A DNA stretch of 22,777 bases, from contig JASHOI010000414.1 in NCBI GenBank assembly GCA_030041195.1, positions 1 to 22,777 on the forward strand. Reading direction: 5' to 3'. Source of the DNA: Streptosporangiaceae bacterium (GTDB lineage: Bacteria > Actinomycetota > Actinomycetes > Streptosporangiales > Streptosporangiaceae). Of the stretch, positions 2 through 16,251 are shown piece by piece. The notes below the pieces were generated by a model. It did not search any database, was not told the origin of the DNA, and was given only the letters and a program-made list of their open reading frames with translations. The position numbers were made by a program, and so were the translations under genes. Position 1 is the stretch's first letter. Every line of letters starts with the position of its first letter.

Positions 2-454
2 GGGACGATGCCCGACCGGCCGCCCGCCCGCCGCCCGGCGCTGGCCAGCGGCGGCATCGGCTGGGGCATCCCGGCCGCGGTCGGGGTCGCGCTGGGGGAC
101 CGGGACCAAGGCGTCACCCGGCCCGTCATCGGCCTGATCGGCGACGGCTCGGCCCAGTACTCCGTGCAGGCCCTCTGGACCGCGGCTCAGCACAAGCTGC
201 CGGTCGTGTACGTGGTCATGCGCAACGAGGAGTACTCGATCCTCAAGTCGTTCGCGGTGCTGGAGGAGACACCGGGAGTTCCGGGCCTGGACCTGCCGGG
301 GCTGGGCATCGCCGACCTGGCCCGCGGGTTCGGCTGCCGCGCGGTCGACGTCGCGACCACGCAGGAGCTGGAGCAGGAGTTCAAGACGGCCCTGGGCGCC
401 GACACCGCGACGGTCATCGTGGTCCGCACGCAACCCCAGCAGGCGATGCTCTAG
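2..454 (+). CDS. mdlC: Benzoylformate decarboxylase-like ThDP enzyme, C-terminal part (5' end outside window)
   Basis: About 150 C-terminal residues of a thiamine-diphosphate-dependent decarboxylase; the reading frame is open from base 2, so the true start lies upstream of the window. The ThDP/Mg-binding motif is visible as GDGSAQYSVQALWTAAQ, followed about 27 residues later by MRNEEY. An NVPGLD-like stretch is present as GVPGLDLPGLG, as in benzoylformate decarboxylases. Family knowledge: the enzyme converts benzoylformate (phenylglyoxylate) to benzaldehyde and CO2 in the mandelate pathway. The neighbouring aldehyde dehydrogenase on the other strand fits as the next step. The acetolactate synthase/oxalyl-CoA decarboxylase branch cannot be fully excluded from the C-terminus alone, but the motif spacing and the ASGGIGWGIPAAVG stretch favour the benzoylformate decarboxylase group. 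The gene converges with ppa. Confidence 0.8.
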   Translation, partial: GTMPDRPPARRPALASGGIGWGIPAAVGVALGDRDQGVTRPVIGLIGDGSAQYSVQALWTAAQHKLPVVYVVMRNEEYSILKSFAVLEETPGVPGLDLPGLGIADLARGFGCRAVDVATTQELEQEFKTALGADTATVIVVRTQPQQAML

Positions 455-610: not shown

Positions 611-1117
611 TCAGCCCGGCTCCGGTTCCCGGGCCTCCCGCAGGCGGCGCCGGGAGGCTTCGACCTCGGCTTCGGCGGCGGCGCGGTCGGCCCAGGAGGC
701 GCCCTCGACGCTCTTGCCCGGTTCCAGTTCCTTGTAGATCAGGAAGAAGTGCTCGATCTCCAGCCGGTCGAACTGGGGCACGTGGTGCAGGTCGCGCAGG
801 TGCTCCTGGCGCGGGTCGCCGGCGGGCACGCAGAGGATCTTGTCGTCACCGCCCTTCTCGTCGCGCATCCGGAACATGCCGATCGGGCGGCTGCGGATCA
901 GGCAGCCGGGGAACGTGGGCTCTTCCACCAGCACCAGCGCGTCGAGCGGGTCGCCGTCCTCGGCCAGGGTGTCCGGCACGAAGCCGTAGTCGGCCGGGTA
1001 CTGGGTCGCGGTGAACAGCGTCCGGTCCAGTCGGATCTGGCCGGTGACGTGGTCGACTTCGTACTTGTTGCGGCTGCCCCGCGGGATCTCGATCAGGACG
1101 TCAAATTCCATGGCCAT
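611..1117 (-). CDS. ppa: Inorganic pyrophosphatase, family I
   Basis: 168 residues, the normal size for a bacterial family I soluble pyrophosphatase. Visible motifs are [16 protein letters not shown] at the N-terminus, [14 protein letters not shown], the metal-binding signature DGDPLD (residues 54-59) and [10 protein letters not shown] (about 85-94). The enzyme hydrolyses PPi to two phosphates in the cytoplasm. The start chosen is the ATG at 1117 (MAMEFDV); the ATG at 1111 is a close alternative. The gene begins 11 bp after the aldehyde dehydrogenase stop on the same strand, so the two are almost certainly co-transcribed. That is unusual for a gene normally found in a housekeeping context; here it probably removes PPi made by the divergently encoded AMP-forming CoA ligase (inference). 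Confidence 0.95.
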
Positions 1118-1128
1118 GGTCCATGATC

Positions 1129-2643
<1,515 letters not shown>

Positions 2644-2739
2644 GGCGTCCCCTTTCGCGGTGTGACCACGACGCTAAGCCGGGACGAACCCAGGGTTAAC
2701 GTGCTGGCGGCACGAGGATGGGCCGTTTCCTCGGACCAC

Positions 2740-2758
2740 CGGCACAACGGTTGTGCCG
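2740..2758. promoter_or_regulatory. 19-bp perfect palindrome (putative operator) in divergent promoter region
   Basis: CGGCACAACGGTTGTGCCG has two perfect 8-base arms around a 3-base centre. It lies in the 182-bp gap (2644-2825) between the divergent aldehyde dehydrogenase-ppa and CoA ligase-adenylate kinase pairs. Size and position fit a dimeric repressor site (TetR-, GntR- or IclR-like) controlling both directions. The cognate regulator is not visible in this window. Nothing else in the gap is clearly recognisable. Confidence 0.6.
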
Positions 2759-2825
2759 CGGTACCAACGCATCGTGACAGGCTTGATACCGGGGACCGAC
2801 GACCCCTGCGGATGCCCGCCGCAGA

Positions 2826-4340
2826 ATGAACAGCGTGAGCAATCTGGCAAAGAACCTGACGGACACGACCCGGGCCCACGGCGGGCGGGTGGCCGTGCGG
2901 GTGGACAACGCGGCGATGACGTACCGGGCACTGGACGAGGCGAGCGCACGGGTCGCCGCGCTGCTGCACGAGCGCGGTCTCAAGCCCGGTGACCGGGTCG
3001 GGATCATGATGCCCAACGTCGCCGAGGTTCCCGTCGTGTACTACGGCGTGCTCCGCGCTGGCGGCGTGGTGGTTCCGATGAACCCGCTGCTCAAGGTGCG
3101 GGAGGTCGCCTACTATCTCGGCGACTCCGGCGCCGGGCTGATCTTCGCCTGGCACGGGTTCGCGGACCAGGCCCGCGGCGGCGCCGAGCAGGCCGACGCG
3201 GAAGCCATCGTGGTGGACGAGGTCAGCTTCCCCGAGCTGCTGGCCACCGTCGACCCGGATTACGAGGTCGTCGACGCCGCCGACGAGGACACCGCGGTGA
3301 TCCTGTACACCTCCGGCACGACCGGCCACCCGAAGGGCGCCGAGCTCACCCACGGCAACCTGATCAGCAACACCGAGGTGTGCCGCGACGAGATCGTGCA
3401 CGCCCGCCCCGACGACGTCATCTTCGGCGGGCTTCCGCTGTTCCACGTGTTCGGGCAGACCGTCGCGCTGAACGTCGCGGTCGCGTCCGGGGCCTGCCTG
3501 ACCCTGCTGCCGCGGTTCGACGCCGACCACGCGCTGCGGATCATCGCCGGCCACCGGGTCACCGTGTTCGAGGGCGTGCCGACCATGTACGTGGCGCTGC
3601 TGCACGCACCCGACCGCGGGGACTACGACACTGCGTCACTGCGTATGTGCATCTCCGGCGGCGCGGCCCTGCCCGTCGAGGTGCTGCGCGGGTTCGAGGA
3701 GGCGTTCGACGTCCCGGTGCTGGAGGGATACGGCCTGTCGGAGACCTCCCCGGTCGCCTCGTTCAACCACATCGACCGCGAGCGCAAGCCCGGGTCGATC
3801 GGCACCCCGATCCGGGACGTGCAGATGCGCGTCGTAACCGCCGATGATCACGATGTCCCGCAAGGCGAGGTGGGCGAGATCGTGATCAGCGGGCCGAACG
3901 TGATGAAGGGCTACTGGCAGCGCCCGGAGGCGACCGCCGAGGCGCTCCGCGACGGCTGGTTCCACACCGGAGACCTGGCCCGCGTCGACGAGGACGGCTA
4001 CTTCTACATCGTCGACCGGAAGAAAGACATGATCATCCGCGGCGGCTACAACGTCTACCCGCGCGAGATCGAGGAGGTGCTCTACGAGCACCCGGCGGTC
4101 GCCGAGGCTGCGGTGATCGGCCTGCCGCACCCGTCGCTGGGCGAGGAGGTGGGCGCCGCCGTGGCCCTCAAGCCGGGTGCCGAGATCACCCCCGAGGAAT
4201 TGCGGGACTACGTCAAGTCCCAGGTAGCGGCGTACAAGTACCCTCGCCACGTATGGATCGTGGACGCGCTGCCCAAGGGGGCGACCGGCAAGATCGTCAA
4301 GCGGGAGATCGTTCCCCCGCCCGGGTTGATCGCTCAGTGA
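2826..4340 (+). CDS. AMP-forming acyl-CoA synthetase (fatty acid/aryl acid-CoA ligase)
   Basis: 504 residues, an ANL-superfamily adenylating enzyme. The P-loop-like A3 motif is YTSGTTGHPKGAELTHGN (161-178), the A5 motif is GYGLSETSP (301-309) and the A7 motif is HTGDLARVDEDGY (about 380-392). The A8 hinge is DRKKDMIIRGGYNVYP (397-412), and the C-terminal catalytic Lys is in KGATGKIVKRE (Lys489). It converts an acid, ATP and CoA to acyl-CoA, AMP and PPi. The sequence resembles long/medium-chain fatty acyl-CoA ligases, but aryl acids are possible and context suggests an aromatic acid. The start is the ATG at 2826; a GTG at 2835 is an alternative, and neither has a strong ribosome binding site. 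The stop overlaps the start of the adenylate-kinase-like gene (GTGA). Confidence 0.93.
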   Translation: MNSVSNLAKNLTDTTRAHGGRVAVRVDNAAMTYRALDEASARVAALLHERGLKPGDRVGIMMPNVAEVPVVYYGVLRAGGVVVPMNPLLKVREVAYYLGDSGAGLIFAWHGFADQARGGAEQADAEAIVVDEVSFPELLATVDPDYEVVDAADEDTAVILYTSGTTGHPKGAELTHGNLISNTEVCRDEIVHARPDDVIFGGLPLFHVFGQTVALNVAVASGACLTLLPRFDADHALRIIAGHRVTVFEGVPTMYVALLHAPDRGDYDTASLRMCISGGAALPVEVLRGFEEAFDVPVLEGYGLSETSPVASFNHIDRERKPGSIGTPIRDVQMRVVTADDHDVPQGEVGEIVISGPNVMKGYWQRPEATAEALRDGWFHTGDLARVDEDGYFYIVDRKKDMIIRGGYNVYPREIEEVLYEHPAVAEAAVIGLPHPSLGEEVGAAVALKPGAEITPEELRDYVKSQVAAYKYPRHVWIVDALPKGATGKIVKREIVPPPGLIAQ

Positions 4341-4915
4341 GACTGCTGCTGCTCGCTCCTCCGGGGGCCGGCAAGGGCACCCAGGGGGACCGGCTGGCGG
4401 CCCGGTTCGGCGTGCGGCACATCGTCGCCGGTGACCTGCTGCGGACCGAAGCACGGGCGGACACCCCGCGCGGCCGCGAGATCGCGGCGGTCCAGGAGCG
4501 GGGCGATCTCGTCCCCGACCAGATCGTGCTCGACGTGCTGACCCCGGCCGTCGTCGATGCCGCCGCGGGCGGCGGGTTCATCCTGGACGGCTTCCCGCGG
4601 ACCCTCCCGCAGGCCACAGCCGCCGCCGAACTCGCGATCCGGCTTGGCGTGACACTGCAGGCGGCGGTCTACCTGCACGCTCCGGACGAGGTGCTGACGC
4701 ACCGGCTGCTGGCCCGCGCCGGCCAGGGCGGACGCACCGACGACAAGGCCGACGTGATCCGGCACCGGCTGCAGGTGTATGCCGAGACCACGGGCCCGCT
4801 GGTGCCCTACTACAAAGCGCGCGGCATCCTCGTCACGGTGAACGCCGATCAGCCACCGGACTCGGTCACCGCCGACATCCTGACCGGGCTGTCTCAGCTC
4901 TCGCTGACCCCTTAG
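4337..4915 (+). CDS. adk: Adenylate kinase-like nucleoside monophosphate kinase, short-LID form
   Basis: 192 residues beginning with a GTG that overlaps the ligase stop codon (GTGA at 4337-4340), a typical translational-coupling junction. The Walker A is APPGAGKGTQ (7-16), the NMP-binding site is GDLLRTEAR (32-40) and the signature is FILDGFPRTLPQA (81-93). The LID region is the short form without zinc cysteines (ARAGQGGRTDDKADVIRHRL, about 126-145). Family reaction: ATP + AMP to 2 ADP. The essential adk of actinomycetes sits in the ribosomal-protein/secY operon, so this copy fused to a CoA ligase is probably a dedicated paralogue that recycles the AMP the ligase releases (inference). Specificity for another NMP cannot be excluded. 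Confidence 0.88.
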   Translation: MRLLLLAPPGAGKGTQGDRLAARFGVRHIVAGDLLRTEARADTPRGREIAAVQERGDLVPDQIVLDVLTPAVVDAAAGGGFILDGFPRTLPQATAAAELAIRLGVTLQAAVYLHAPDEVLTHRLLARAGQGGRTDDKADVIRHRLQVYAETTGPLVPYYKARGILVTVNADQPPDSVTADILTGLSQLSLTP

Positions 4916-4965
4916 CGGCGCCGGGGGACACTGGCGGCTGGCCACCGACTAGAAGGTGCGGACTC

Positions 4966-5934
4966 ATGACGAACCAAATGCCAGAATCTCTGCCTGCCCT
5001 GGGTATCTGCCTCGAGGAGTACGAGTATCCCTATCCGGTTAACTTCTTCCCGGTCACTAACGATCTGCAGTCGCTGAAGATGGCATATATGGATATTCCG
5101 CCGGACAAGGAGCCGAACGGGGAGACCGTCGTCCTTTTCCACGGCAAGGCGTTCGGCTGTTACTACTTTCAGAACGTCATCGAGGCGCTGACCGGCTCCG
5201 GGTACCGCGTCGTCGCCCCCGACCAGATCGGCTGGGGTAAGTCGCCCAAGCCCGATGTGCACTACAGCTTCCAGATGCTGGCCGCCAACACCGCCGCCCT
5301 GCTGGACCACGTCGGCGCGGGGAGAGTTGCGGTGCTGGGTCACTCGACCGGCGGCATGACCGCGGCCCGGTTCACCTTGATGAACCCCGATCGCGTGACG
5401 CACCTGGTCCTGCAAGACCCGCTCGGCCTGGCCGATTACCGGACCGGCATCCCGCCGCAATCCGAGGAAACGCTGTACGACCACGAGGTGCACTGGACCG
5501 ACCCGGCCACGATCCGCGGCTACGTCAAGGGTTACTTCGTGCATCCCGACCCCAAGGTGTGGGAGCCGCTGGCGGACGTCCTGGTCCGGGTGACCCTCAG
5601 CCCCGACTATCCGCGGTGGGCCCGTTCCGCGGCGCTCACCTTCCAGATGATCTACCAGCAGCCGGTCCGTTACGAATATCACCTGATCGCGCCGCCGACG
5701 CTGCTGATCGTCGGAGCCGAAGATCATGTCGTCCCGCTCGGCCAGTACGCCACCCCGGCCGAAGCGGCCCGGCTGGGCGACTTCCCGGCGCTTGCCGCGG
5801 CAGCGGCTCAGGACATTCCCCGGGCCAGGGCGGTAGTGATCCCCGAATGCGGGCACATCCCGCATCTGGAGCAGCCCAGGAAGTTCTTCGCCGAGTTCCT
5901 GCCCTTCCTCTCAGGCGGACGCCGCCCACAATAA
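4966..5934 (+). CDS. Alpha/beta-fold hydrolase
   Basis: 322 residues. The nucleophile elbow is GHSTGG with Ser127. The oxyanion region is VVLFHGKAFG (55-64), the acid is probably Asp253 in IVGAEDHVVPLG and the catalytic His is probably His297 in ECGHIPHLEQP. PDQIGWGKSPKP (85-96) is the usual stretch after strand 4. There is no signal peptide, so it is cytoplasmic. The family includes meta-cleavage product hydrolases, esterases and dehalogenases; the substrate cannot be read from sequence. The ATG at 4966 follows AAGGTG. The first about 40 codons are richer in A/T-ending codons than neighbouring genes, which may reflect a different origin. It lies 50 bp after the adenylate-kinase-like gene and runs into the HIT gene. 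Confidence 0.88.
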   Translation: MTNQMPESLPALGICLEEYEYPYPVNFFPVTNDLQSLKMAYMDIPPDKEPNGETVVLFHGKAFGCYYFQNVIEALTGSGYRVVAPDQIGWGKSPKPDVHYSFQMLAANTAALLDHVGAGRVAVLGHSTGGMTAARFTLMNPDRVTHLVLQDPLGLADYRTGIPPQSEETLYDHEVHWTDPATIRGYVKGYFVHPDPKVWEPLADVLVRVTLSPDYPRWARSAALTFQMIYQQPVRYEYHLIAPPTLLIVGAEDHVVPLGQYATPAEAARLGDFPALAAAAAQDIPRARAVVIPECGHIPHLEQPRKFFAEFLPFLSGGRRPQ

Positions 5935-5946
5935 ATGGAGGTATAT

Positions 5947-6456
5947 GTGTCCACCTCTTCCGGCGAGCGGCCCGTGGAAATCGGTCCGCCGCCGTATTAC
6001 CACCGGTCCGACTGCAACATCTGCCGCAAGCAAGACGGCCTGAAAACGGGGTCGAAGCTCCTGGACGTCCCCCGCCCAGGAGGGTACATCGTCGAACGCG
6101 AGCACTTCCTGGCCGAGCACGCCCCGCTGCAGGAGTCCAGCGCAGGAACGGTCATCCTCGAGGCCAGGCGGCATCTCCTGGATTTCGGCGAGATGACTCC
6201 GGCGGAGCTTGCCGAGTTCGGCTCGATCGCGCACCGGCTCGTCCCGGCGATCAAGGCCGCCACCGGCGTCCAGCGCGTCTATCTGCTGGCGGTGATGGAG
6301 CGCGCGCCGCACTTCCACCTCTGGTTCGTTCCAAAGAAGGACGAGGGAGAACTCCGGGGCGTGGACTACCTGGCGCAGCGGCCCCCTCTTACCGCCTCGT
6401 TCGGCGCGGCAGAAGCGACGGCGCGCAAGATCCGAGAGCAGTTCGAACAGCCCTGA
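5947..6456 (+). CDS. HIT-like family protein
   Basis: 169 residues. The histidine-triad core is recognisable as APHFHLWFVPK (120-130). Two of the three triad histidines are present (His122, His124) and the third position is Trp126, so the motif is HxHxW. A CNIC pair (Cys23, Cys26) near the N-terminus could bind metal. HIT proteins hydrolyse nucleotidyl derivatives, including acyl-AMP in the Hint branch; the activity of this variant is unknown. Start choice: an ATG directly abuts the upstream stop at 5935, but ATGGAGG there reads as the ribosome binding site for the GTG at 5947 (GGAGG, then 5 nt, then GTG), so the GTG is preferred. Probably co-transcribed with the alpha/beta hydrolase. Confidence 0.75.
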   Translation: MSTSSGERPVEIGPPPYYHRSDCNICRKQDGLKTGSKLLDVPRPGGYIVEREHFLAEHAPLQESSAGTVILEARRHLLDFGEMTPAELAEFGSIAHRLVPAIKAATGVQRVYLLAVMERAPHFHLWFVPKKDEGELRGVDYLAQRPPLTASFGAAEATARKIREQFEQP

Positions 6457-6468
6457 CGCCGCGCACAA

Positions 6469-6482
6469 CTTGATGGGTCAAG
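6469..6482. promoter_or_regulatory. Upstream operator-like box, CTTGA-N4-TCAAG
   Basis: CTTGATGGGTCAAG is an inverted repeat with perfect 5-base arms. It lies 118 bp upstream of a near-identical, fully palindromic box at 6587-6602. The pair looks like two sites for one dimeric regulator, one distal and one at the promoter of the pirin gene. Confidence 0.55.
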
Positions 6483-6554
6483 CCGTATGTAATCGCGCTC
6501 GGGCCGTACGGGTCGGAGCAATGACCGGATGATACTGGCCCAAGGCTATGTACC

Positions 6555-6583
6555 TTGACAGGTGAGCAGCCTTGCTTCATGAT
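6555..6583 (+). promoter_or_regulatory. Putative housekeeping-type promoter of the pirin gene
   Basis: TTGACA at 6555-6560 is a perfect -35 hexamer. After a 17-bp spacer comes CATGAT at 6578-6583, a 4-of-6 match to the -10 consensus. The predicted start point is near 6590, inside the palindrome at 6587-6602, as expected for a repressed promoter. Confidence 0.55.
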
Positions 6584-6586
6584 TTA

Positions 6587-6602
6587 ACTTGATAGATCAA
6601 GT
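6587..6602. promoter_or_regulatory. Perfect 16-bp palindrome (putative operator) at the pirin promoter
   Basis: ACTTGATAGATCAAGT has perfect 7-base arms around a 2-base centre. It overlaps the predicted transcription start and lies 20 bp before the pirin start codon. Size and form suit a MarR-type regulator. A related copy at 22183-22196 lies upstream of a MarR-family gene in this same window. Confidence 0.65.
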
Positions 6603-6621
6603 GATTAAGCAAGGGATGACC

Positions 6622-7395
6622 ATGAGCACAACCTCGCTCCTGCGCCCGGACGTCAGCCTTCGCCGCGGCGCGGATCGCCACCAGACAAGGATCGGGTGGC
6701 TGCACGGGCGCCATTCGTTCGACACCGGGATCGACCCGCTGGGCGCCGATACGCATCATGGCGCCCTCGTCGTCAGCAACCACGACACGATCGCGCCCCG
6801 GTCCGGGTTCGACACGCATCCGCACCGGAACATGGAGATCGTGACCTGGGTGCTGACCGGCTCGCTGGTTCATCAGGACTCAGAGGGCCACAGCGGCGTC
6901 ATCTATCCGAACCTGGCGCAGCGCATGACCGCCGGCACCGGGATCCGGCACTCGGAGAAGAACGACCTGCCGGCCGGGAGCCCGGACGCCGATCGGCCGC
7001 TGGACCTGATTCAGATGTGGGTCGTGCCGGACGAGACCGAAGTGGATCCGGGATACGAGCAGCTCGAACTGAACCCGTTCGACGTCCAGGGCCGGCTGGC
7101 GGTGGTGGCGTCTGGGATGACACGGCATCAAAACGAGGCGGCGATCCGGATCCGGAATCGTTATGCCGCTCTCCATGTCGCGCGGCTGGAACCCGGCGAG
7201 AGCGTCGCCGTCCCCGATGCACCTTTTGTTCACGTTTACCTCGCCCGCGGCCAGCTGGACCTCGAGGCGGCAGGCCTGCTCGAAGCGGGGGATGCCGCTC
7301 GCCTGACCGCGGCGGGGGAGCGCCGTCTCGGTGCTGTCGAACCCAGCGAGGTCCTGATCTGGGAGATGCACGCCTCCCTGGGCCCGGCAGCCTAA
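6622..7395 (+). CDS. Pirin family protein (cupin; quercetinase-like)
   Basis: 257 residues from the ATG at 6622, chosen because AGGGA lies 5 nt upstream; an earlier ATG at 6589 sits inside the operator and has no ribosome binding site. The pirin N-terminal cupin metal site is visible as FDTHPHRNMEIVTWVLTG (His/His), then LVHQDSEGHSG and GTGIRHSEKN. The second cupin half is shorter and degenerate. Related bacterial proteins (YhhW type) show quercetin 2,3-dioxygenase activity or act as redox sensors. The C-terminus may be altered: its stop codon lies within sequence belonging to the downstream monooxygenase remnant, so the last few residues (PAA) appear to derive from a deletion junction. Likely controlled through the two CTTGA-N4-TCAAG boxes. 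Confidence 0.9.
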   Translation: MSTTSLLRPDVSLRRGADRHQTRIGWLHGRHSFDTGIDPLGADTHHGALVVSNHDTIAPRSGFDTHPHRNMEIVTWVLTGSLVHQDSEGHSGVIYPNLAQRMTAGTGIRHSEKNDLPAGSPDADRPLDLIQMWVVPDETEVDPGYEQLELNPFDVQGRLAVVASGMTRHQNEAAIRIRNRYAALHVARLEPGESVAVPDAPFVHVYLARGQLDLEAAGLLEAGDAARLTAAGERRLGAVEPSEVLIWEMHASLGPAA

Positions 7396-8498
7396 CGGCC
7401 GCCCTGACCCTGCAGCGTTTCGGCGTGCTGGTGCGCGTCTTCGAGCAAGCACAAGCCTTCAGGGAGATCGGCGCGGGGGTCACCATAACGCCGAATGCCA
7501 TGAATGTGCTTAATTTCCTCGGCATCGGCTCAGGTTTGGCCGAGCAAGCTGGAGTGACGCTGCGCTATTCCGTACGCAGCGCAGCCGACGGCCGCGAGCT
7601 CGAGCGCGGACCCGACCCCGATTCATTCGTGCCCGAATTCGGTGCCCCCTACTGCAACCTTCACCGTGCTGACCTCCACTCGGCGCTGGCCAACGCTGTG
7701 ACAAGGAACGACCCGGACGCCGTTCTGCTCGATCACCGTTTCGATTATCTGGAGCAGGATGGCGACAAGATCATCGCGCACTTCTCGAACCGCACCTCCG
7801 TCGAGGCGCCGGCGCTTATAGGTGCCGACGGCGGAGCATCGGTGGTCCGCGATGTCGTCTTCGGTGGGCAGAACGCGGCGTACACCGGCCACGTGGCGCT
7901 GCGGGCGCTGGTTCCGTTCACGCGAGTGCCCCGGGCGATCACCGAGGATCCCTACGTGCTCTACGTGGGGGCCGGCCGGTCGTTGATCCACTATCCGCTG
8001 CGGCGCCAGAGCACGATGAACTTGCTGGGTAACGCCCAGGCCTCGCAGTGGCAGGCGGAGGGGTGGGCCATTCCGGCCACGGTCGAGGAGTTCCTCGGCC
8101 TGTTTGATGACTTCCCGGCACCCGTGCGAGAGCTGATCGCCGCGATCCCCAGCCCGATCTCTTCAAATGGGGCCTAAGAGACCGGGAACCACTGCAGACG
8201 TGGACCCGCGGCCGGGTGACGATGCTCGGGGATGCGGCCCATCCCATGAGGCCAGGGCGCCTGCATGGCGATCGAAGACGGGATGATCCTGGGCCGTGCC
8301 TTTGCCGAGGCGCAGGACCTCGAAGAGGCGTTTGCTCGTTATGAGGCCGCGCGCCGGGATCGCGCCAACGGCGTTCAGCTGGCATCCCGCTACCAGGGAA
8401 CACAGCATCACGGCTCGACCGCTTCCGGCCCCAGCACGGGGAAGACGGCCGTAACGCTCGGCTTGTTCTCGTACAACCCAGTGACCGAGTCCATCTAA
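7386..8498 (+). pseudogene. FAD-dependent aromatic monooxygenase remnant (salicylate/3-hydroxybenzoate hydroxylase family)
   Basis: Clear homology to class A flavin monooxygenases across three frames. The N-terminal GxGxxG dinucleotide site is gone: the remnant begins at LTAALTLQRFG, directly joined to the pirin gene. Intact stretches follow, including FEQAQAFREIGAGVTITPN and the ALIGADGGASVVRD motif. A missing base near 8156 breaks the frame; the next frame reads LFKWGLRDREPLQTWTRG and the GDAAHPM FAD motif. A second break near 8254-8258 is best explained by a small deletion (about 11 nt by comparison with the family pattern) just before QGACMAIEDG. The C-terminus then runs to the stop at 8498. 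With its FAD-binding start deleted, it cannot encode a working enzyme. Confidence 0.88.
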
Positions 8499-11678: not shown

Positions 11679-12548
11679 GTGCGTATCGGACGTGCTAATG
11701 GCCGTCTTGTGATCATCGACGGTGACGGTGTGGTCGACGTCGCGAGCGCCAGCGGCGGCGAGTTCAGCGCCGACCCGGATCGCGTGTTCGCTGTGTGGGA
11801 CCGGTTCACCGAATGGGCTGGCGGGTACGCCGGTTCCGGCGAGCACACCAGCCCGCTCATGCCAGAGGAACTCGGCGCGCCGGTGCTTGCCCCGGCCCAG
11901 GTGTTCGGGATCGGCCTGAACTACCGGGAGCACGCCGCCGAGTCCGGCGTTGACGTGCCGGATGTGCCGCCGGTGTTCACGAAGTTCCGCAGCTGCCTGA
12001 CCGGGCCGTCCGCGACCGTCGAGCTGCCCAGCGACCGGGTCGACTGGGAGGTCGAGCTGGTCGCGGTGGTCGGGAGGGCCGCGGAACGGGTGCCGGAGCA
12101 GAAGGCCTGGTCGTACGTGGCTGGCGTGATGGTGGGTCAGGATCTGTCCGAGCGGGCGGTTCAGCTGGCCGGCCCGGTGCCGCAGTTCTCGCTGGGGAAG
12201 TCGTTTCCCGGCTTCGGGCCGACTGGACCGTGGCTCGTGACGCCCGATGAGCTGCCGGACCGAGATGATCTGCCGTTGCGCTGCTCGGTCGACGGCCGGG
12301 TGCTGCAGGACGGCCGGACCAGGGACATGATCTTTTCCGTTCCCGAGCTGCTGGCCCGGATCTCGGCCGTGTGCCCGATGCTGCCCGGCGATCTGGTATT
12401 CACCGGCACCCCGCCCGGGGTGGGCATGGGGCGCAAGCCGCCCGAGTTCCTCCGCCCCGGCACCACGCTGGTCAGCACCATCGAGGGCCTGGGCGAGTTG
12501 CGGAACCCGCTGATCGCCGGGCCGGGCTTTGCGCAGCCGGGGCGGTGA
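11679..12548 (+). CDS. Fumarylacetoacetate hydrolase family protein
   Basis: 289 residues with the FAH C-terminal fold. IGLNYREHAAE (78-88) and the metal-binding acidic residues Glu124 and Glu126 in DWEVELVAVVG are present. Asp155 is in MVGQDLSER, the active-site Lys174 is in SLGKSFPGFGPTGPW, and FTGTPPGVGMG (241-251) follows. The family contains fumarylacetoacetases, acylpyruvases, 2-hydroxyhepta-2,4-diene-1,7-dioate isomerases and hydratases acting after ring cleavage. The start is a GTG at 11679 with GAGGGAGA upstream, 21 bp after the dioxygenase stop. Its stop overlaps the GTG of the next gene, acetoacetyl-CoA synthetase. That would make sense if this enzyme releases acetoacetate (inference). 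Confidence 0.92.
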   Translation: MRIGRANGRLVIIDGDGVVDVASASGGEFSADPDRVFAVWDRFTEWAGGYAGSGEHTSPLMPEELGAPVLAPAQVFGIGLNYREHAAESGVDVPDVPPVFTKFRSCLTGPSATVELPSDRVDWEVELVAVVGRAAERVPEQKAWSYVAGVMVGQDLSERAVQLAGPVPQFSLGKSFPGFGPTGPWLVTPDELPDRDDLPLRCSVDGRVLQDGRTRDMIFSVPELLARISAVCPMLPGDLVFTGTPPGVGMGRKPPEFLRPGTTLVSTIEGLGELRNPLIAGPGFAQPGR

Positions 12549-14540
12549 CCGCGGTGAGCCTGGGCGGTGAGCCGATCTGGGTACCCGACCCGGACGAGGC
12601 CGCGGCCGCGAACGTGGCGCGGTTCGCCCGCTGGCTCACCCAGACCGGGCGGGGCCGGCTGAGCGGCGACTACCTCGAGTTGTGGCGCTGGTCGGTGGAC
12701 CGGCTCGATGAGTTCTGGTCGGCTGTCTGGGACTACTTCGGCGTCCGATCGGCCGCTCCGTACCAGCGGGTGCTGTCCGGGTCGGTCATGCCGGATGTCG
12801 AGTGGTTCACCGGCGCGCAGGTCAGCTACGCGGAGCACGTATTCCGGGGCCGTGACCTGGGCCGGGTCGCGGTGATCGACGCCCGCGAATCCGCGCGGCC
12901 GGGCGAAGGACCGGTCAGCCGCCTCCTGACGTGGGGGATGCTGCGCGAGCAGACCGGTAGCCTCGCCGCGATGCTCCGCAATCTCGGGGTCGGTCCCGGC
13001 GACCGAGTAACCGGGTACGTGCCCAACGGGGCCGAGGCGGTCGTCGCGTTCCTGGCCACGGCTAGCCTCGGCGCCATCTGGTCCAGCTGCGGTCAGGACT
13101 ACTCGCCGCCGGCGGCGGCCGAGCGCCTGGGGCAGCTAGAGCCCGCGGTGCTGATCGCGGCCGACGGCTACCGCTACGGCGGGCGGGAATTCGACCGGCG
13201 CGGATCGGTCAGCGAGCTGGCGGCGCTGCTGCCCAGTCTCCGCGCGACGATCGTGTTCCCCAGGCTCGGCCTTCCGGCGGCCGCCGCGGCGGGAGAACTC
13301 GGCTGGCCGGGTCCGTCGGGCTCTGCCGACCTGGTACCGCACCCGGTGCCGTTCGGCCACCCGCTGTGGGTGCTGTTCTCCTCCGGCACCACCGGCCGGC
13401 CCAAGGGGATCGTGCACAGCACCGGCGGGGTGCTGCTCGAGCACCTGAAGGCGATGTCGCTCAGCCTGGACCTCGGCGAACAGGACGCGTTCTTCTGGTA
13501 CACCTCGCCGAGCTGGATGGTGTGGAACTACCTGGTCTCGGGCCTGCTGGCCGGGGCGCGGATCGTCTGTTACGACGGAAGCCCGAGCTACCCGTCGTGG
13601 CAGGCGCTGTGGGCGCTGGCCGCCGAGCACCGCGTCACGCTGCTGGGCACCAGCCCCGCGCATCTGCGCGGCTGCGCCCAGGCTGGCGTGGAACCGGCTC
13701 GTGACCATGACTTGTCCGCGCTGCGGTCGCTCGGATCGTCGGGTTCGGCACTGCCGGGCGACGCTTACTTCTGGGTGTCGGATCATGTGGGGCGCCGGGT
13801 CCGGGTCAACTCCACCTCGGGCGGCACCGACGTCGTCAGCGCGTTCGCCGGCGGCTCGCCGGTCGTGCCGGTGTGGCCGGGCGAGCTGTCCGCGCCGTGC
13901 CTTGGGGTGGCCCTCGACTCGTGGGACTCCGGCGGCAGGCCGGTCCGCGGCGCGGTCGGTGAGCTCGTCATCACCAAGCCGATGCCGTCGATGCCGGCGG
14001 CCTTCTGGAATGACCCGGGCGGCTCGCGCTACCGGGAAGCCTACTTCAGCACCTACCCGGGCGTATGGCGGCATGGCGACTGGATTACGGTCACCGACCG
14101 CTGGTCCGTGCTGGTGCACGGCCGGTCCGATGCCACGCTGAACCGCAACGGCGTCCGGATGGGCAGCTCCGACATCTACCACGTGGTCGAGCAGATCGAC
14201 GAGATCGCCGAGGCCCTCGTGGTCGGGGTAGAGCAACCGGACGACGGGGTACTGGATGCCCCTGTTCGTGGTGCTCAACACCGGGCACGATCTCGACGAC
14301 GCGCTGGCCGGCAAGATACGGCGGGCAATCCGCGAGCAAGCCTCGCCCAGGCACGTGCCCGACGAGATCATCGCCGCACCGGCCATCCCGCACACCCGCA
14401 CCGGCAAGAAGCTGGAAATCCCGGTCAAGCGGATCCTGCAGGGCGGCGACCTGGGCCAGGTCGTGGACGCCGGCGCGGCAGACGACCCGGACGCCCTGTG
14501 GTGGTTCGCGGCCTACCGGGCAAGGACGCCGATCCCGTGA
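12545..14540 (+). pseudogene. Acetoacetyl-CoA synthetase, frameshifted near the C-terminal domain
   Basis: About 664 residues if one base is ignored, the normal length for acetoacetate-CoA ligase. The N-terminal ACAS cap has LWRWSVDRLDEFW, and the ATP motif is LFSSGTTGRPKGIVHSTGG. The family-typical FFWYTSPSWMVWNYLVSGLL, RHGDWITVTDRWS and GRSDATLNRNGVRMG follow. The frame then breaks at GGGG (14246-14249): with three Gs it would read DDGYWMPLFVVLNTGHDL and continue to HTRTGKKLEIPVKRIL with the catalytic Lys and the stop at 14540. As written, the upstream frame runs on as unrelated sequence to 14581. Either a real +1 mutation or a homopolymer sequencing error. The GTG start at 12545 overlaps the FAH stop (GTGA); a GTG at 12554 is an alternative. 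Confidence 0.85.
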
Positions 14541-14577
14541 CCGAGAATCGCCGGTCCGGGCGCGAGGAGGAAACGCG

Positions 14578-15540
14578 ATGAAGACGAGCGTGCTGATCCC
14601 CACCACCGGCGACATCGCCACCGTGCGCGAGCACGCCGCGATGGCCGATGAGCTCGGCTACGACTCGATCAACTGCTCGCACATCGCCGCCCGCGATTCG
14701 TTCACCACCCTCGCCGGCCTTGCCCACCTCGCCCCGTCGGTCACCCTGGCCACGGCGGTGGCCCCGATCTACCACCGCTCGCCCGCGTCGATGGCCCAGA
14801 CGGCCGCCACGGTCGACGACCTGTCCGGCGGCCGCTTCCGGCTCGGGCTGGGCACCGGTCACCGGGCCACGATGGGCGGCTGGCACGGGCAGGACATCGG
14901 CAGCCCGGTGACCGAGATGCGCGAGTACGTGGCACTGGTCCGGGCGCTGCTGGCCGGGACCGGGCCGCCGGCCGGTCTTCGCTGGAACTCCAGCTTCGCG
15001 TTCAGCGGCTTCAAGCCTCGTGCCGATATCCCCATCTACCTGGCCGGCCTGTCCCCGGCCATGCTGCGCCTGGCCGGAGAGATCGCCGACGGAGTGGTGC
15101 TGTGGGCGTGCCCCGCCTCCTACGTCGGGGACGTGGTGACGCGGGAGATCGCTGCCGGCCGGGCGCGGGCCGGCCTGGATCTTGACGGATTCGACATCTG
15201 TGCCGCCATCCCGAGCGCTGTCGTCGCCGATCCCGCCGTCGCCCACGCCGGGATACGCGCCGAGCTGCACCGCTACTTCGGCCTGCCTTTCTACCGGGCG
15301 ATGTTCGCCCATGCGGGTTACGAAACCGACATCGCGGCCTACGACGCGGCGGCCGACGTTGGCGCGCAGCGCGCCGCGATCAGCGACGCGTTCATCGATG
15401 ACCTATGCGCCATCGGCAAACCGGAGGACGTGGCGGCGGGCGTGGCCCGCTATCGTGCCGCCGGCGCCACCAACCCGATGATCACCAACATCACCGGCAC
15501 CGACCTGCGACCGGCCCTGCAGGCAGCCGTCAGGACGTAG
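14578..15540 (+). CDS. LLM-class (probably F420-dependent) oxidoreductase
   Basis: 320 residues of the luciferase-like monooxygenase family. Typical features are MKTSVLIPTTGD at the first strand, MADELGYDSINCSH, ASMAQTAATVDDLSGGRFRLGLGTGH (here in parts, about 75-102) and PIYLAGLSPAMLRLAGEIADGVVL. In actinomycetes this branch is mostly F420-dependent, acting on hydride transfer to diverse substrates; FMN use cannot be excluded. The ATG at 14578 has the strongest ribosome binding site of the region (GAGGAGGAAA). It closes the rightward catabolic unit that starts at 10707, 37 bp after the synthetase stop. Its 3' end overlaps the phaC remnant on the other strand by 11 bp. Confidence 0.88.
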   Translation: MKTSVLIPTTGDIATVREHAAMADELGYDSINCSHIAARDSFTTLAGLAHLAPSVTLATAVAPIYHRSPASMAQTAATVDDLSGGRFRLGLGTGHRATMGGWHGQDIGSPVTEMREYVALVRALLAGTGPPAGLRWNSSFAFSGFKPRADIPIYLAGLSPAMLRLAGEIADGVVLWACPASYVGDVVTREIAAGRARAGLDLDGFDICAAIPSAVVADPAVAHAGIRAELHRYFGLPFYRAMFAHAGYETDIAAYDAAADVGAQRAAISDAFIDDLCAIGKPEDVAAGVARYRAAGATNPMITNITGTDLRPALQAAVRT

Positions 15541-16251
15541 GCGCCTGATCGCGCACGTAGCGCCCGGGTGCCGGGTCCAGTCCCGGGCATCGGCCGCCGG
15601 GTGTCTCGGGCCGCGGCCGCGGGTCGCCGGATCGTGCCGTTATCCAGTCGGCCCAGGCCTCCCACCAGCTGCCCTGCTGTCTCTGCGCGCCGGCCAGCCA
15701 CCGCTCGGCGTCAGCGCCGGGTGCCGCACCGGTCCAGTAGTGCGCCTTTGGGGTTGCCCGGCGGGTTCACCAGCCTGGCAGCCCTTCCACGGCGTCAGAT
15801 GGTCGGTGACGGCGCCGGTGACGAACGTCGGGACGGTGATCTGTCGTAGCTGCAGGGGTGTTCCCAGAACGCTGAGCCGCCCGGGGCGGGTAAGCAGGTT
15901 ATCGCGGAAGATGTCCAGGAACTGGCCGTGCAGCGCTCCGGGCAGGTTGGTGCCGTCGGCGTTCCAGGCGAGGATGTCGAAGGCAGGCGGCTTGTCGCCC
16001 ATCAGGTAGTTGTTCACCCAGTAGTTGAAGACGAGGTCGTCGGGGCGCAGCCAGGTGAAGGCGCTGCCCATCTGTCGGCTGGTGATGATGCCGTTGCGCC
16101 GTGACCGGCGGCCGGCGAAGGCGGCCAGCCCGCGCCCGGAGAACGCGGTGATCGGGGCGCGCAGGCCGAAATCGAGCAGGGTGACCGCGTAGGCCATGCT
16201 GTGCACCCGGTCGTCGCCGGTGGCCGCGAGGTGGTTGAGCAGGGTAGTGCA
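15530..16251 (-). pseudogene. phaC: Poly(3-hydroxyalkanoate) synthase remnant (class I PhaC, C-terminal half)
   Basis: On the minus strand, LLNHLAATGDDRVHS, the stretch SAFTWLRPDDLVFNYWVNNY, GDKPPAFDILAWNADGTNLP and FVTGAVTDHLTPWKGC are unmistakably PhaC. Homology starts just after where the lipase-box cysteine should be, with three consecutive TGA codons before it, so the nucleophile and the N-terminal half are missing. After WKGC about 22 residues, including the expected catalytic-His loop, are deleted. The frame then shifts to LVNPPGNPK, shifts again by one extra A, and ends AHYWTGAAPGADAERWLAGAQRQQ, SWWEAWADWI, PAPGRYVRDQ. It is squeezed between the LLM gene and the GntR gene and cannot be active. 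Confidence 0.88.

Follow-up and report, generated by a model that had tools for sequence, protein, structure and literature searches.

The locus described here raises the question of why genes for an adenylate kinase (ADK) and an inorganic pyrophosphatase (PPase) should stand beside the gene for a single AMP-forming CoA ligase. Hydrolysis of PPi and recycling of AMP are usually viewed as cell-wide housekeeping. The window, i.e. the whole stretch of 22,777 nucleotides that was analyzed, belongs to an uncultured actinobacterium of soil type and carries two divergent gene pairs separated by a spacer of 182 bp (Table 1). On the minus strand the PPase gene (ppa) lies 11 bp downstream of an aldehyde dehydrogenase (ALDH) gene, and on the opposite arm the ligase gene and adk overlap by 4 bp (GTGA), the GTG start of adk lying within the ligase stop. 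The gene order, strands, 11-bp gap and 4-bp overlap of the original prediction were all confirmed by the coordinates and by family searches. Third-position GC is 0.90-0.94 in each of the four frames.

Table 1. Features of the window, with coordinates and the evidence for each
Feature	Position	Strand	Evidence
Benzoylformate-decarboxylase-like C-terminal fragment	8-454		NF005485, E=9e-45
Soluble inorganic pyrophosphatase (PPase), 168 aa	611..1117	-	ATG at 1117, TGA at 611; PF00719, E=9e-57
Aldehyde dehydrogenase (ALDH), 504 aa	1129..2643	-	ATG at 2643, TGA at 1129; PF00171, E=5e-179
Dyad CGAGGA-N9-TCCTCG	2713..2733	.	Inside inverted repeat I1; CGAGG/CCTCG arms kept in L302
Perfect palindrome CGGCACAAC-G-GTTGTGCCG, 19 bp	2740-2758	.	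Inverted-repeat search
AMP-forming acyl-CoA ligase, 504 aa	2826..4340	+	ATG at 2826, TGA at 4338-4340; PF00501 and PF13193
Short adenylate kinase (ADK), 192 aa	4337..4915	+	GTG at 4337, TAG at 4915; PF00406, E=2e-41
Broken 3' part of PHA synthase gene (phaC), several frames	15548..16233	-	TIGR01839, E=6e-46 over one piece

Based on domain searches, the ligase is a member of the ANL superfamily, the AMP-binding (PF00501, 335.9 bits) and AMP-binding_C (PF13193, 79.5 bits) domains both scoring above their gathering thresholds. Ligases of this superfamily convert an acid, ATP and CoA to acyl-CoA, AMP and PPi, which is the reaction predicted here from family membership. Benzoate had been suggested for assays, and family models and solved structures do not favor a benzoate ligase, the sequence being nearer to fatty-acyl types. 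The long-chain-fatty-acid type (NF004837, 495.9 bits against a cut-off of 476) was the only ligase family model above its cut-off among the 25 models listed. Among solved structures, benzoate-CoA ligases ranked below malonyl-, feruloyl- and fatty-acyl-CoA synthetases, the best match being a malonyl/benzoate ligase chimera. The ADK was assigned by PF00406 (142 bits) and NF011104 (176.8 bits, cut-off 160). Residues G10-Q16, R36, R88, R123, R133 and R144, which we take to be the P-loop and the conserved arginines with their usual roles, are invariant in 24 aligned ADKs. The PPase contains the domain of soluble family I pyrophosphatases (PF00719, 191.6 bits) and scores under the cut-off of the equivalog model NF002317 (168.3 vs 200), while the Aldedh domain of the ALDH is full length (PF00171, residues 15-482).

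Relatives of the locus were sought in 218 genomes of one family, which was taken as Streptosporangiaceae because SecY and ADK of one member, G140, match those of Nonomuraea gerenzanensis at 97% and 98%, respectively. ADK matches at E<=1e-50 were found in 12 of the 218 genomes, with identities of 80% (G1208), 77% (G1087) and 49-53% (the other ten). Both adk genes of at least 77% identity overlap a window-type ligase gene by GTGA, and the ligases concerned are 82% (contig L301 of G1208) and 81% (contig L302 of G1087) identical to that of the window. The other ten adk loci of the family gave no ligase match, several of them lying on contigs of less than 7 kb. The predicted pairing of CoA ligase and adk is therefore conserved in two of two close relatives, which rules out that it is peculiar to this strain. 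Identity to the window ADK is 78-93% for the best 120 relatives listed, and P0203, a ligase relative at 88%, is named in NCBI as from a Streptosporangiaceae MAG. One of the 120 listed ligase relatives, P0159 (697 aa), consists of a ligase followed by an ADK in one protein, the ADK part being 82% identical to that of the window. P0159 might be an assembly error, and even then it would place ligase and ADK next to each other in another genome. Two longest-contig sizes (10858 and 53977) recur among both the ADK and the ligase relatives, and two others (6241 and 12700) among both the ligase and the PPase relatives; when sizes were jittered by 10%, as many coincidences of at least 6 kb arose at frequencies of 0.004 and 0.0015, respectively, and at 0.08 and 0.06 when counted from 2 kb. 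There were no such coincidences between ADK and PPase relatives. The gene grouping is judged from these comparisons to be more than chance.

Contig L302 shares the divergent layout, with an ALDH remnant followed by an intact PPase gene whose product is 91% identical to that of the window. Only 76 codons of the gene remain, in frame; it retains its start and end and lacks the middle. In a database protein, P0269, the final ~65 residues of an ALDH run on in frame into a PPase, and the seven leading residues resemble the ALDH start; this too could be an assembly error. It would thus surely be the case for the genome with L302, and probably for P0269, that the ALDH was lost and the PPase retained. 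No ppa was found on the 10.2-kb contig L301. Beyond the PPase, L302 carries genes for a PucR-type regulator, a poly(3-hydroxyalkanoate) (PHA) depolymerase, which scores 277.5 bits with TIGR02240 and so passes the cut-off of 250.6, and a PHA synthase resembling class II.

The spacer between the two arms had attracted attention for its perfect palindrome. The palindrome is present, but it is weak evidence because 16 of 1000 dinucleotide-shuffled versions of the spacer contained a perfect inverted repeat whose arms were no shorter and because L302, with the same divergent layout, is without it; on the same two grounds it was ruled out as a shared operator. From an alignment of two spacers only, the CGAGG/CCTCG dyad is the better candidate for an operator.

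The same parts in another order were found in G095, which gave the lowest ADK E-value in a search of 394 genomes of the class and was the sole match at E<=1e-52 in a phylum-wide draw of 396 genomes. Its run comprises genes for a depolymerase-like hydrolase, ADK (52%), ligase (64%), PHA synthase (PhaC) and PPase (78%). In that order, the first three junctions overlap by 10, 1 and 1 bases, and the fourth is a 2-base gap. The contig stops within the PPase gene and a second contig carries on with an exact overlap. The hydrolase scores 216.6 bits against TIGR02240, under the cut-off of 250.6. The ligase and PPase genes are separated by that for the PHA synthase, and the run is without ALDH. Elsewhere this genome has a second ppa and two more adk genes, one of which is flanked by secY and map; the adk and ppa of the cassette are extra copies. 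In the ADK tree, the module copy of G095 clusters with solitary ADKs from five other genomes (support 99), apart from the group of the window (nine rows, support 99), which suggests that adk was recruited twice. An alternative is that the solitary ADKs of the G095 group are ones whose ligase was lost. The ligase tree unites the window, L301, L302, P0146, P0159 and P0203 (support 100), with the placement of G095 unsettled, and the ligase and PPase trees are too weak for dating the grouping. The grouping of adk, ppa and ligase is kept in relatives and has probably arisen more than once.

By comparison of these loci, ADK and ligase appear to form a tight pair with the PPase as a frequent third, and the ALDH appears to be optional on the ppa transcript. 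The locus had been read as an acid-activation module with built-in removal of PPi and AMP. What stands of this reading is that adk and ppa are partners of the ligase (the overlap in two of two relatives, the fusion P0159, and ppa beside the pair in G1087 and G095). What falls is the ALDH as an essential part, given the 76-codon remnant in G1087, the truncation in P0269 and its absence from the G095 run. The aldehyde-to-acid step is not the core, although the window, with its intact ALDH, may be a case in which it applies. A full aldehyde pathway, in which an aldehyde (e.g. benzaldehyde from benzoylformate decarboxylase) would be oxidized by the ALDH and the acid passed to the ligase with PPi and AMP cleared locally, would fit the intact ALDH and the benzoylformate-decarboxylase-like fragment of the window, as well as two plasmid contexts in which an ALDH gene adjoins adk with a ligase in the run. 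Set against it are the survival of the PPase without an intact ALDH in L302 and P0269, the ALDH-free run of G095 and the affinity of the ligase to fatty-acyl types, and no ALDH family model among the 25 listed reached its cut-off. We consider this pathway quite improbable.

Ligase-adk layouts are rare, being found in 1 of 394 genomes of the class and 2 of 218 of the family, and Actinomycetes often carry extra adk genes, most of which stand alone. A set of 40 loci was drawn from the extra-adk matches listed for 36 genomes, and two of these loci were canonical secY loci. None of the remaining 38, of which 11 (L229-L239) contain only distant ADK-like proteins, had a ligase within ~6 kb (eight ligase queries, E<=1e-10; some contigs were shorter), and ligase-adk as a general actinomycete rule was ruled out on this count. 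A further 11 adk loci, searched with the window ligase as the single query, yielded no window-type ligase. Because no ligase was detected within ~6 kb of these 38 and 11 loci or of the ten of the family, extra adk genes would mostly be kept for other reasons. One locus, L216, has an adk-ppa pair without a ligase. In alphaproteobacterial chromosomes, an ADK query from Bosea matched 27 of 318 genomes at E<=1e-52, at 26 secY loci and one contig edge. A contig scan covered at least 80 adk loci, of which 78 had SecY by tblastn (not L009 and L026), the best ADK identity listed being 45%, and a viral scan gave two distant ADK loci. Based on these surveys, the cassette is real, yet rare and scattered.

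Plasmids provided a second set of examples. Twenty plasmid adk contexts, several of them near-copies, were hand-picked for lineage spread from 214 records. An AMP-forming ligase gene was present in the same run in 13 of the 20, and in 9 of these 13 it lay upstream of adk directly or via ppa. Six contexts had no AMP-forming ligase in the adk run, and one, a ribosomal locus, was dropped. In one of the six, the same strand carries a ligase gene 7.5 kb further downstream. Enterococcus accounts for 61 of the 214 records; in the one context inspected, adk is located behind a copper ATPase gene. The plasmid of Bosea vaviloviae carries the run phaE-phaC-CoA transferase-phaP-hydrolase-acs-ppa-adk, in which ppa and adk overlap by 4 bp. 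On pRL10 and in R. sullae the order is CoA transferase-hypothetical-acs-adk, and on pRltTA1A it is CoA transferase-hypothetical-acs-ppa, so that the slot behind acs on rhizobial-type plasmids is filled by adk, ppa or both. One of three rhizobial ppa contexts adjoins acs. These runs bear on a further explanation, by which paralogous adk and ppa genes drifted to a place near a ligase and were kept for general metabolism, or not kept. The rarity of the layout and the many solitary adk genes are what such drift would leave. It does not account well for stop-start overlaps preserved between genomes, the fusion protein P0159, the retention of the PPase where the ALDH was lost, or the plasmid runs in which unrelated acs genes are grouped in a comparable way, and we regard it as unlikely.

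A connection of the ligase family with PHA was evident from its neighbors. In 8 of 30 ligase loci, G095 among them, phaC lies at most 0.8 kb downstream of the ligase gene, and a ninth has only a weak PhaC match (26%). Twenty loci, chosen from the 30 with preference for those bearing PhaC, were read further out: ligase-PhaC was found in eight, with a hydrolase next in seven of these, and adk or ppa in none of the 20. In the window, tblastn pieces of phaC cover PhaC residues ~312-563. An intact phaC beside the ligase is present in L302 and G095 and not in the window, where the broken gene is a possible relic of the PHA link. A PHA depolymerase near the window ligase was not supported, the hydrolase of the window reaching 40.8 bits against the TIGR02240 cut-off of 250.6.

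The explanation that we favor is that the ligase has its own by-product disposal, adk and ppa being its partners, and we hold this to be probable. The reactions of ADK, PPase and ligase are established for their families. The ligase would form acyl-CoA, AMP and PPi. The PPase would destroy PPi and so make the ligation one-way, and the coupled ADK would convert AMP and ATP to two ADP, which are recharged by the cell, so that AMP near the ligase stays low. ADK and PPase would then work for this ligase in particular and not for the cell at large. Less surely, ligases of this type may re-activate the 3-hydroxy acids freed by the depolymerase in medium-chain PHA turnover, since PhaC and a hydrolase of depolymerase type recur behind members of this family. 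With phaC broken in the window, the ligase there would act on other acids or together with PHA genes elsewhere.

The ADK reaction is reversible, and the ligase might conversely run backwards, making ATP from acyl-CoA, AMP and PPi with ADK supplying the AMP. Acs1 of Syntrophus is a precedent, and the same source, in the portions available, describes Syntrophus as without soluble PPase genes (PMC4992975). Here a soluble-family PPase (PF00719) encoded beside the ligase would destroy the PPi that is needed, which makes this direction very improbable.

Taking by-product disposal as the preferred reading, AMP-forming CoA ligases may repeatedly have gained a private adk and ppa, up to fusion, for one-way acid activation at low local AMP, chiefly in storage-polymer turnover; this generalization is offered tentatively. 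If it is true, synthesis and breakdown of a storage polymer would run side by side at a cost borne by one ligase. The tying of adk and ppa to one ligase in unrelated bacteria would suggest that the shared pool is insufficient for some pathways. To drive CoA-thioester chemistry, in cells or cell-free, both the cassette and the naturally fused ligase-ADK would be ready parts. A full-text search (titles and starts of abstracts, mostly non-subscription literature) found no publication in which the triad, or either of the pairs ligase-adk and ligase-ppa, is presented as a unit, and none describing the acs-ppa-adk or acs-adk plasmid runs. The work on PPi in Syntrophus came closest.

Three known systems may be compared with the locus. 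In Syntrophus aciditrophicus, an AMP-forming CoA ligase, adenylate kinase and the economy of PPi are likewise considered jointly; the system differs in its opposite direction (ATP from PPi) and its membrane PPases, and the available portions of the source describe no ligase-adk-ppa gene unit (PMC4992975). In Pseudomonas putida, PHA granules carry an acyl-CoA synthetase alongside PhaC and the depolymerase (PMC2788523, PMC2959000), and it has been considered whether making and degrading PHA at the same time amounts to a futile cycle (PMC2959000, PMC3918157). The cooperation there of ligase, PhaC and the PhaZ depolymerase resembles the arrangement proposed here, whereas the portions of these sources that were available name neither adk nor ppa as a partner (PMC2788523, PMC2959000, PMC3918157). 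G095 and L302 have ligase, PHA synthase and depolymerase-type genes in a single region, and the window differs in that its phaC is only a broken piece. The acs-ppa-adk and acs-adk plasmids of Bosea, Rhizobium, Shinella, Micrococcaceae and Prescottella are like the window in that an AMP-forming CoA ligase is partnered with ADK, PPase or both, encoded directly behind it. They differ in that the ligase is annotated as acetate--CoA ligase (~650 aa) and the ADK is 37-40% identical to that of the window. The Bosea plasmid run lies inside a PHA operon.

The AMP-forming acyl-CoA ligase of the window has a listed relative of 756 aa (P0174) whose tail carries no resemblance to adenylate kinase (ADK), and an adk gene in frame behind the ligase is therefore not seen in every relative. 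The tail of P0174 looks like a non-coding frame.

Among the loci surveyed for extra adk genes in Actinomycetes, a ligase was searched for around the adk and ppa (pyrophosphatase) genes of L216, and none was detected. Upstream of this pair were NhaA-like and aldehyde dehydrogenase (ALDH) genes, while genes named by eye as dihydroxyacetone kinase L subunit-like and PTS enzyme I-like were located beyond it.

Features of the window and of the compared loci
Feature	Location	Position	Strand	Remark
Benzoylformate-decarboxylase-like TPP enzyme	window	8-454	+	C-terminal fragment at the window's edge
Acetoacetyl-CoA-synthetase-like ORF	window	12371-14581	+	named by reading of the sequence alone
PHA synthase gene	window	15548-16233	-	3' part only, broken across several frames
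adk then ppa	L216 (genome G025)	4586-6677	-	
ALDH, with a divergent ADK-like protein directly behind it	L228 (genome G058)	5969-8178	-	ADK-like protein at about 30% identity
Plasmid adk	L317 (Enterococcus faecalis plasmid)	5001-5621		adjoins copper ATPase gene tcrB
Slot behind acs: ppa	L316 (pRltTA1A)			
Slot behind acs: adk	L187 (pRL10)			
Slot behind acs: adk	L188 (R. sullae)			
Slot behind acs: ppa-adk	L186 (Bosea)			

Within the window, the decarboxylase-like fragment and the pyrophosphatase gene are convergent. The synthetase-like ORF possibly contains a frameshift. Its similarity to ligases stops near 14248 and the final stretch resembles a different frame. The broken polyhydroxyalkanoate (PHA) synthase piece and the ligase-adk pair lie about 11 kb apart.

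Matches to adk were found in 61 Enterococcus plasmid records. On the plasmids pRltTA1A, pRL10 and those of R. sullae and Bosea, the regions of acs, the CoA ligase gene, include a CoA transferase, and a class III PHA synthase gene (phaC) was named for three of these four regions (L186, L187 and L188).
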